Shown piece by piece: positions 6,779 through 16,196 of a stretch of 20,248 nucleotides of DNA. Positions within the stretch are counted from its first letter, which is position 1; the number at the start of each line of letters is the position of its first letter. This DNA is from Candidatus Heimdallarchaeota archaeon LC_2 (GTDB lineage: Archaea > Asgardarchaeota > Heimdallarchaeia > Heimdallarchaeales > Kariarchaeaceae), in NCBI GenBank assembly GCA_001940725.1, contig MDVR01000005.1:1-20248 (forward strand), given 5' to 3'. The position numbers were made by a program, and so were the translations under genes. The notes below the pieces were generated by a model, which saw only the letters and a list, made by a program, of their open reading frames with translations, was not told the DNA's origin and did not search any database.

Positions 6779-7706
6779 AAACATAATCAGTATTATCATC
6801 CAATGAGAAACCAATTTCTCTCAATGGGTCTTGGACGTTATCTTCTGAATAAGTTTGTGCATAAATCTCATCAAACCCAGATTCAAAAATATCCTTCATA
6901 ATTTGACTTAGAATAAGTCGGAATCCAAACCTAGAGAAATTAGAATCTGGTACATATATTCTCAAGTATTGAGTCAGAATCACTACTATCTTCAATGATT
7001 TATATTGATAAACTTGAATAATGGATTTGTCTGTATTTCCCCATATATATTGATTCACTTCATCACTGGATCTTAATTGCTCAAGGTCAAAAATTGGTGC
7101 GTAATATCTTCCAATAACCGGGTAAAGCTTTGAATTTTGTACATCAATCATTAAATCATTGTAATTTATAACTTCAATTCGCTTGACGTCTTTGTGAATT
7201 ATTTTATTCATCTTAAAATTTTCAAATTTTAATGTCCAATTTGTAATATTTCTTCTCTTCTCTCCTAAGGATGAATATAGCGCTAAACTCCTTACATCCT
7301 CCGCTTCAACCCAAATTTCGATGTTGGGAAAATTAGTTTTTAAATTTTCAAGTAATAATTTTGCTATTCCTATATTCCTATAATCTCGTCTTACAATTAG
7401 CCAAATGATGTGTATCCGTTTAATTTTGCGAGATGTAAAATCTGGAGATATGACATAATCCAATTCAGAAATTATTTCGTTATTGTATTTAGCGATTAAA
7501 ATTTTGCCATCACAGTTATCAATAATTTGTCTATGCCATTTTAATAAGTCAGGAATTACCCACCATTTTCCTAATTTAAATAATTCCTCTAGATTTATTT
7601 GATCTTTATTTTCCCAATATTCTTCTTTGTTAATTTCTACTAATTCATATATGTCTTGAATCTTTGCATTTTCGATTATAACTTCCTTAAGGTTAATTCT
7701 TGACAA
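6768..7706 (-). CDS. GNAT-family N-acetyltransferase, possibly two tandem GNAT folds
   Basis: 312 residues. The first half has a good GNAT pattern: a strand [24 protein letters not shown] (residues about 99-122) containing the acetyl-CoA pyrophosphate-binding R-x-x-G-x-A motif as RNIGIA (110-115). This is followed by [24 protein letters not shown], the family's 'N..A..lYe.lGF' helix and strand. The second half ends ...[47 protein letters not shown], which resembles a degenerate second GNAT domain lacking a clear RxxGxG/A. Substrate unknown. The start is TTG at 7706; no ATG or GTG exists in the upstream open frame. The 3' end overlaps pcc1 by about 11 bases (convergent). The upstream 108 bp separate it from the divergent kbl gene. 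Confidence 0.75.
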
Positions 7707-14148: not shown

Positions 14149-14187
14149 TTCAAGAGATATAATCAATAAGTTGATTAATATCAAAGT

Positions 14188-14340
14188 AGGCTCCTTAACC
14201 GGGAAAGTTAAGCCTCGCATCGGGCTCTGTTTGTACTAATTTGCGCGAGCATTTGGGAAGGCTGCCACGTTGCATTTAATTGCGGCCATAGAGCGAGTGT
14301 GACACCGGGAAACATCCGAACCCCGATAGTTAAGGAGTTT
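14188..14340 (+). ncRNA. precursor of permuted 5S rRNA with terminal helix and bulge-helix-bulge splice motif
   Basis: Leader CTCCTTAAC (14191-14199) pairs perfectly with trailer GTTAAGGAG (14329-14337), and three more pairs (A-U and two G-U) extend it to 14188/14340. Moving inward, CGGG (14200-14203) pairs with CCCG (14322-14325). Bulge AAA (14204-14206) lies on the leader strand and bulge ATA (14326-14328) on the trailer strand. GTT (14207-14209) pairs with AAC (14319-14321). On each strand 5'-to-3' the order is helix, 4-bp helix, 3-nt bulge, helix, which is the polarity of canonical tRNA-splicing-endonuclease substrates. Cleavage is expected between the second and third bulge bases, 14205/14206 and 14327/14328. 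A competing hairpin pairs CTTAAC (14194-14199) with GTTAAG (14207-14212). Confidence 0.85.
14206..14327 (+). rRNA. 5S ribosomal RNA, circularly permuted (3' half before 5' half)
   Basis: 5S rRNA sits in the large subunit central protuberance with uL5 and uL18. Its landmarks are all present, but in swapped order. The 3' half comes first: GTTAAGCC (14207-14214), TTGTACT of loop E (14231-14237), a GCGA tetraloop (14245-14248) closed by TGC/GCA, and GGGAAG (14255-14260). The 5' half follows: GCGGCCATAG (14282-14291) and loop C ending CCGAAC (14316-14321). Joining 14327 to 14206 gives CCGAACCCCGAT-AGTTAAGCC, the standard helix III-loop B sequence. Predicted helices: I, GTTGCA/TGCGGC (14269-14274 with 14281-14286), capped by TTTAAT; II, GCGAG/CTCGC (14293-14297 with 14214-14218); III, CGGG/CCCG with a 12-nt loop; IV with the GCGA loop. 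Segment lengths in helix IV and loop E match those recalled for Thermoplasma 5S. Helix V pairs poorly by eye, and an alternative helix I (GGCTGC/GCGGCC) exists. The spliced product is 122 nt, or 116 nt without the hexaloop. Confidence 0.88.
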
Positions 14341-14345
14341 TTTTT
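14338..14345 (+). terminator. oligo-T terminator of the 5S locus
   Basis: Eight consecutive T residues directly follow the GTTAAGGAG trailer. U-tracts on the coding strand are sufficient terminators in archaea. This placement defines the 3' end of the precursor just past the terminal helix. Confidence 0.7.
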
Positions 14346-15311: not shown

Positions 15312-16196
15312 ATGGCTCAAAAATATGAAGAAAGTGAAGTGTTTGTTATTAGAACTCTAGAATGTGATTTGTGTCAAAGATTCGATTCAATAATGATTAC
15401 AAAAAGAGAAATGTTTGAACGAATTAGCAGAAATAAATTACAAATCGGAAGTTATTATTTGAATCACAATGATCACGTTCGTGTGGTTTATTTTGATTTG
15501 GATGGAAAATATCTTGGGGACACAATTTCTTTAAATTTAAGAGATGATATTACAACTCATATAAATGGATCAATTCCTATATTCCCAAAAGTTAAAAAAG
15601 GGGTCGCTTATACTTTTATTCGAAAAATGATGTCTCAATTTCTAAGCACAAGTCAAACCATAAGTATTATAGGGCCTTCTTTAGTTGGTAAAACATCATT
15701 AACATATTATTTGGAGACAGGAATCCCTGAACGGCATTCTCAGAGGATAGATCACTCAGCAACTATGGGGAAATCAGTTAAAAGAATGAAAATCGGGAAT
15801 ATTAATTTGAAAATACTAGATATGGGTGGGCAAAAAGATTTCTGGGGTGGTTGGGAGGAATCAATTCGCGAATCAGATAAAATTATATTTATTTTTGATG
15901 GAACTGCATTTAACTATGAAGAAATAGCAGATTCACTCTCATTAGCCATTGATTATAGAAGTGAACGTCTTGTACCATTTCTAATATTAGTTAACAAAAT
16001 GGACTTATTCATTGATGGGTATACAAACAAATTTTCTAGTGTTGATGAAATTAATAATTCACTTGAAATCACCAACCCAAGGGACATTTGGACCCTTGAA
16101 ACATCGATATATAATGGACTTTGTTACAACTATGGTGCTGAACAAAGTGAAACACCACTTTCTAAGGTTATCTCAGATTTTCTTATTTTAAATTAG
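15312..16196 (+). CDS. Arf/Rag-like small GTPase with an extra N-terminal domain
   Basis: 294 residues. The GTPase domain occupies about residues 112-294. It has P-loop GPSLVGKTS (121-129), a probable switch-I Thr in SATMGKS (about 141), switch II DMGGQKDFWGGWEESI (160-175), and NKMD (218-221) for guanine recognition. The DxGGQxxxWxxW pattern is typical of Arf, Rag and related small GTPases, with Gln164 as the catalytic residue, so hydrolysis is probably intact. The first ~110 residues form a separate domain of predicted beta strands with a C-D-L-C pair (18-21). It might bind metal with other residues, or be roadblock/longin-like in outline; I cannot name it. No lipid-attachment Cys or terminal membrane helix is seen. 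Such GTPases are strongly expanded in Asgard archaea, which drives the taxonomic inference. Start is ATG 15312. Confidence 0.85.
   Translation: MAQKYEESEVFVIRTLECDLCQRFDSIMITKREMFERISRNKLQIGSYYLNHNDHVRVVYFDLDGKYLGDTISLNLRDDITTHINGSIPIFPKVKKGVAYTFIRKMMSQFLSTSQTISIIGPSLVGKTSLTYYLETGIPERHSQRIDHSATMGKSVKRMKIGNINLKILDMGGQKDFWGGWEESIRESDKIIFIFDGTAFNYEEIADSLSLAIDYRSERLVPFLILVNKMDLFIDGYTNKFSSVDEINNSLEITNPRDIWTLETSIYNGLCYNYGAEQSETPLSKVISDFLILN

Follow-up and report, generated by a model that had tools for sequence, protein, structure and literature searches.

The 5S rRNA is nearly universal, and in its ordinary form both ends of the molecule lie at helix I. A permuted version reportedly occurs in brown-algal mitochondria, as Valach is said to have described in 2014 (Rfam family RF02547, mtPerm-5S), and we know of no bulge-helix-bulge (BHB) processing of that RNA. 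Among archaea, the SRP RNA genes of Thermoproteus are circularly permuted, the RNA is circular, and its BHB is cleaved by the splicing endonuclease in vitro, as far as the accessible sections of the original report go (Plagens 2015, PMC4731332). Archaeal 16S and 23S rRNAs are circularised via a BHB, with the 23S rRNA of Pyrococcus furiosus being permuted, according to the available parts of two further papers (PMC7758197, PMC12918454); the second describes circularisation as shown for 16S and 23S rRNAs, but not for 5S rRNAs. Permuted tRNA genes are expressed through a circular intermediate (Soma, cited in the available part of PMC10085705). In Halobacterium, circular RNAs with several variable junctions arise from an ordinary 5S gene and may be degradation products (available extract of PMC12558985). 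Permuted 5S rRNA goes unmentioned in the available portions of PMC8997704, PMC8339473 and PMC9723677, and our search, which covered open-licence PMC papers only, found no report of an archaeal permuted 5S gene.

Here, we analyzed a 20,248-base stretch of DNA, referred to as the window, and it is near certain that its positions 14206-14327 are a circularly permuted 5S rRNA gene in an archaeon. The 3' half of the molecule, recognizable by GTTAAGCC from 14207, TTGTACT, the GCGA loop and GGGAAG, comes first and is followed by the 5' half with GCGGCCATAG and CCGAAC. A preceding sequence-only reading of the window had named these landmarks, and all of them were found where it placed them, including TTTAAT at 14275-14280. 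The features of the locus are the following:

14157-14164, + strand: TATA-like box ATATAATC, possible promoter of the 5S transcript (identified only as a string match)
14188-14199, + strand: 5' arm of the outer BHB helix, core CTCCTTAAC at 14191-14199, 12 pairs with G-U; pairs with 14329-14340 and is present in the unconstrained fold
14200-14203, + strand: 5' strand of the central 4-bp BHB helix, CGGG; pairs with CCCG at 14322-14325
14204-14206, + strand: 5' bulge AAA, read from the sequence; predicted cut between 14205 and 14206 following the known BHB rule
14206-14274, + strand: 3' half of 5S rRNA (loop B/helix II 3' strand, helices V and IV, helix I 3' strand); permuted covariance model R1 at 14207-14327, nhmmer profile 50-107 at 14205-14264
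14275-14280, + strand: loop TTTAAT, joining the ancestral 3' and 5' ends and capping helix I, with the 6-bp helix GTTGCA/TGCGGC around it
14281-14327, + strand: 5' half of 5S rRNA (5' strands of helices I and II, helix III with loop C); R1 match, nhmmer profile 3-59 at 14280-14336
14322-14325, + strand: 3' strand of the central BHB helix, CCCG, by pairing with CGGG; also part of helix III of the mature 5S
14326-14328, + strand: 3' bulge ATA, read from the sequence; predicted cut between 14327 and 14328
14329-14337, + strand: 3' arm of the outer BHB helix, GTTAAGGAG, by pairing with the 5' arm
14338-14345, + strand: run of eight T directly 3' of the stem, likely transcription terminator judging from the sequence

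The covariance model R1 was built from 22 ordinary-order Asgard 5S sequences permuted in silico: the sequences were taken from other genomes of the phylum via RF00001, cut before GTTAAG, their halves swapped, and aligned, giving a consensus without helix II. Against the complete window, R1 returned a single match at E ≤ 10, located at 14207-14327 on the + strand and covering model positions 1-120 of 120 with 55.7 bits and an E-value of 8.6e-17, covariance-search E-values being rough. Linear Rfam families, RF00001 and RF02547 included, had no match anywhere in the window at E ≤ 1, in line with the expectation that a linear 5S model would miss the gene, and no tRNA was found in the window. The proposed rejoining check was run with an nhmmer profile of the 22 sequences in ordinary order. 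The rejoined window halves scored 43.0 bits (E 2.9e-12), whereas the genomic order gave two fragments of 20.6 and 20.5 bits in reversed succession (profile 50-107, then 3-59); five wrong rotations of the window sequence reached 21.0-36.8 bits. The locus in its genomic order is thus not a linear 5S gene by RF00001, but the molecule is recognized as 5S rRNA when rejoined or when compared with the permuted model. The reading as a permuted archaeal 5S gene is supported, and our analysis adds to it the BHB flanks and the wide occurrence of the permuted order.

The sequences on both sides of the gene (5'-CTCCTTAAC-CGGG-AAA-GTT ... AAC-CCCG-ATA-GTTAAGGAG-3') form a BHB with all of its defining elements, namely a 4-bp CGGG/CCCG helix, two 3-nt bulges and an outer helix contributed by both flanks, which measures 9 bp (12 with G-U). 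A BHB is cleaved between the second and third base of each 3-nt bulge, so that cuts at these places would yield a product of 122 nt, 14206-14327. This is the predicted mature segment, with the BHB processing stem and the T-run as its flanks. When the precursor is folded without constraints, the outer helix, the 4-bp helix and the ATA bulge all appear; the folding energy is unremarkable (z -1.56, 17/200 shuffles as stable) and not decisive.

We consider it likely that the tRNA-splicing endonuclease cuts the transcript of the permuted gene at the BHB and that ligation then yields a circular 5S rRNA. The gene would be transcribed as one short unit ending at the T-run, EndA would cut each bulge between its second and third base, and RtcB would join 14327 to 14206, restoring helix III (CCGAACCCCGAT/AGTTAAGCC). 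In the resulting circle of 122 nt, which is the likely product under this model, helix I would be closed by UUUAAU in place of free ends, and the circle would be incorporated into the large subunit in the role of its 5S rRNA. EndA-family genes were present in 12/12 relatives searched, as were RtcB genes, of which 11 scored over the cut-off and some were only fragments. Regarding the transcription signals, TATA-like matches were found in 55/100 loci with flanks compared to 33% of shuffles, and downstream T-runs in 74/100 loci with flanks compared to 48% of shuffles, both representing a moderate enrichment only. A sigma-70/terminator pattern scan was uninformative and was set aside.

The same permutation was also sought in related genomes, as had been suggested for the window gene. 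With the search centred on L001 (genome G001, a Kariarchaeota MAG), the one useful locus of three from a genome-contig scan, the swapped order was read in 106 further loci from 105 other genomes of the phylum. All 107 loci, including the window, align to R1 over positions 1-120 and score between 51.7 and 92.4 bits; two loci in ordinary order scored 34 and 38 bits. R1 matches at E ≤ 1e-4 occur in at least 186/227 genomes of the phylum, a figure that does not give the number of permuted genes, since an ordinary gene also produces R1 matches, as two weaker pieces side by side. The counts leave out L006 and L007 (ordinary order), L009 (cut by a contig end), extra copies in multi-copy genomes, the permuted-looking matches of G020, G033, G060, G110, G133, G135 and G156 and, among the matches listed, about 15 unclassified genomes with weak R1 matches (e.g. 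G101, G102 and G108). As a separate observation, L114 (G063:C510:3678-3949) is a tandem pair of permuted 5S genes, each with different BHB flanks. The window is probably a metagenome contig, which might raise the concern of an assembly artefact or a chance resemblance. This has a negligible probability, as it is contradicted by the R1 E-value and by the presence of the same order in 105 other genomes, several of the permuted loci sitting in contigs over 1 Mb.

Next, we looked into the conservation of the BHB. Under strict rules (4 of 4 pairs in the central helix, bulges of 3 nt and at least 4 uninterrupted pairs in the outer helix), it was detected in 53/107 loci compared to 14/1783 flank pairings swapped between genomes. 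A relaxed score of at least 8 was reached by 39 of the 53 distinct flank sets and by 80/2756 swapped pairings, and a score of at least 10 by 31/53 and 23/2756, respectively; the script behind this score took another register in some loci (e.g. G129). Each of the outer-helix positions 1-12 shows 4-6 pair types, with base pairing preserved as the bases themselves vary. At the predicted joint, the sequence is often CCGGAA/GTTAAG or CACGGA/AGTTAAG (slash at the joint), the same as in ordinary 5S rRNA. No BHB was seen in 8/53 flank sets, with relaxed scores of 4 or less (G003, G012, G015, G024, G081, G158, G160 and G162). In the block from G012 to G035 (L012, L014, L016 and related loci), an 11-bp stem and the 4-bp helix are separated by a hairpin of some 30 nt whose own stem varies, and GGTCAG on both sides of this hairpin makes the cut site ambiguous in some members.

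These data bear on an alternative in which the transcript is trimmed or cut without ligation, leaving a linear, permuted mature 5S whose two ends lie in helix III. The closed helix I would allow such a molecule, the permuted mitochondrial 5S, as far as described, provides a precedent, and some loci are without a clear BHB. However, plain trimming needs no BHB, yet the BHB with its 3-nt bulges is kept by compensatory changes in most flank sets, and we regard this alternative as unlikely compared to cleavage and ligation into a circle.

In the permuted loci, the two strands of helix I are connected by a loop. A script assigned this loop in 106/107 permuted loci; it measures 3-6 nt in 87/107 and 4 nt in 65, and often reads TTCG, TGCG or TACG, with TTTAAT in the window. 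The script misplaced the loop in some loci (11-33 nt, e.g. G129) and several of the longer loops are script errors, while those of G105-G107 may be real. As there is mostly no spacer to remove, we take helix I to stay closed for good. In a circular fold of the window segment, all five helices (I to V) form, with an internal loop and mismatches in helix V. Among 12 circles folded by minimum energy, some relatives, e.g. G003, do not show the full helix set.

The absence of any ordinary 5S gene had been put forward as a further check, and no convincing one was found in the 105 permuted genomes. RF00001 matches over the cut-off were present in 64/227 genomes of the phylum, in 3/56 relatives, with at least 10 of the 56 showing two adjacent sub-threshold pieces, and in 3/105 permuted genomes (G010, G051 and G134). 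The match of G010 is the permuted locus itself. In four permuted genomes assembled into almost a single contig (G015, G049, G053 and G054), checked with stricter filters, all listed RF00001 matches at E ≤ 1 overlap the permuted locus. The ordinary 5S matches of G051, G110 and G134 were rejected as host genes, as they adjoin bacterial 23S rRNA and are likely contaminants. The same applies to the ordinary 5S of G033, which lies on a contig with a DPANN-like RNA polymerase; the nearest match of this polymerase is at 90%, the named matches are mostly Aenigmarchaeota/Aenigmatarchaeota (best 78%), and one 'Heimdallarchaeota' match has 72%.

One could also imagine that the window copy is decayed or extra and that another 5S gene works in the same genome. 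Its 55.7 bits are low within the range of the 107 loci and helix V contains mismatches, but the BHB and T-run are intact, the circular fold has all five helices, and 105 genomes share the order and lack a convincing ordinary 5S, making a decayed or extra copy very improbable.

Extending this reading beyond the window, much of the Asgard phylum probably uses a covalently closed 5S circle in its ribosomes, produced from a permuted gene by the tRNA-splicing enzymes, and the gene would have switched several times between ordinary and permuted order, with another breakpoint in G084. In an RpoB tree covering 60 genomes (39 permuted, 20 ordinary, 1 unknown), at least 4 changes of state are required, 2 of them forced by well supported branches, and 0/500 label shuffles were as low in state changes; the tree is unrooted and was made by a quick method with SH-aLRT support only, and it does not separate gain from loss. 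EF-2 was dropped in favor of RpoB as tree marker because many genomes have two EF-2 matches. One block is likely Loki-like: the best named relatives of the G157 EF-2 are Promethearchaeota and Lokiarchaeota, with other Asgard labels lower down.

In G084 (L270, G084:C63, about 7500-7650), the 5S gene is permuted at a different point and starts in loop B. Rejoining lifts its score to 50.0 bits compared to 37.1 in genomic order, and a possible BHB consists of CCGA/TCGG, the bulges AAA and AAA and an outer helix of only 3 bp. L269 (G033:C117, 8277-8414, minus strand) has the 5S halves in ordinary order, interrupted by a BHB intron of 23 nt at the position of the permutation point, and removal of this intron raises the score from 21.7 to 35.9 bits. 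It is possible that L269 represents an intermediate between linear and permuted genes. Both loci fit an origin of permuted 5S genes via BHB splicing and circles, as we infer. The patchy distribution, the second breakpoint of G084 and the intron of L269 suggest a testable route connecting linear, intron-bearing and permuted genes. The DPANN-like contig of L269 also carries an intron-bearing tRNA. Another ordinary-order 5S, L263 (G212:C15:39893-40044, minus strand), has an insert of about 30 nt after GTTAA, either a further intron or an expansion.

The genes near the window 5S include those for ribosomal protein S15 and a V-ATPase subunit. Adjoining the 5S gene, 15312-16196 on the + strand encodes a small Arf/Rag-like GTPase whose N terminus is extended by about 110 residues. 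Within 26 relatives of this GTPase, those with organism names (15 or fewer close ones) are all Kariarchaeaceae or Heimdallarchaeota. The window probably stems from an Asgard archaeon belonging or close to Kariarchaeaceae.

According to the available part of PMC8813620, the 5S genes of closed Heimdallarchaeum genomes are not predictable by existing HMMs. In our view, permutation of the gene is the likely cause. If the circle exists, a universal ribosomal RNA lacking ends would occur in the closest archaeal relatives of eukaryotes, the maturation of Asgard 5S would depend on tRNA-splicing enzymes, and annotation pipelines would need permuted 5S models.

When compared with the known systems, as far as the available parts of the cited sources describe them, the Asgard 5S gene has its closest precedents in the permuted mitochondrial 5S and the Thermoproteus SRP RNA (PMC4731332). 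The SRP RNA gene and the Asgard 5S gene are both permuted archaeal non-coding RNA genes with a terminal BHB that are missed by standard models. However, the circle has been shown for the SRP RNA and is predicted for the Asgard 5S; moreover, the Asgard case concerns a ribosomal RNA, a different phylum and 105 genomes. A BHB stem around the rRNA is also shared with archaeal 16S and 23S rRNAs, where it is cut by EndA and the RNA ligated (PMC7758197, PMC12918454), but those genes have the ordinary order and permutation arises only in the RNA, after transcription, whereas in Asgard archaea the 5S gene itself is permuted. The circles of permuted tRNAs are reopened to the ordinary form; in contrast, a short loop closes helix I of the Asgard 5S, and the circle is therefore likely final. 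The Halobacterium RNAs and the predicted Asgard product are both circular and 5S-derived, but the Halobacterium gene has the ordinary order (PMC12558985).

The brown-algal 5S rRNA, reportedly with its halves swapped as in the Asgard gene, is mitochondrial, and its model RF02547 had no match at E ≤ 1 in the window or in any of 12 permuted Asgard genomes. Altogether, BHB-processed permutation has precedents in tRNA and SRP RNA, and permuted 5S in mitochondria; judging from the open-licence literature searched, the two coming together in a ribosomal RNA, and in 105 genomes from one archaeal phylum, seems to be new.
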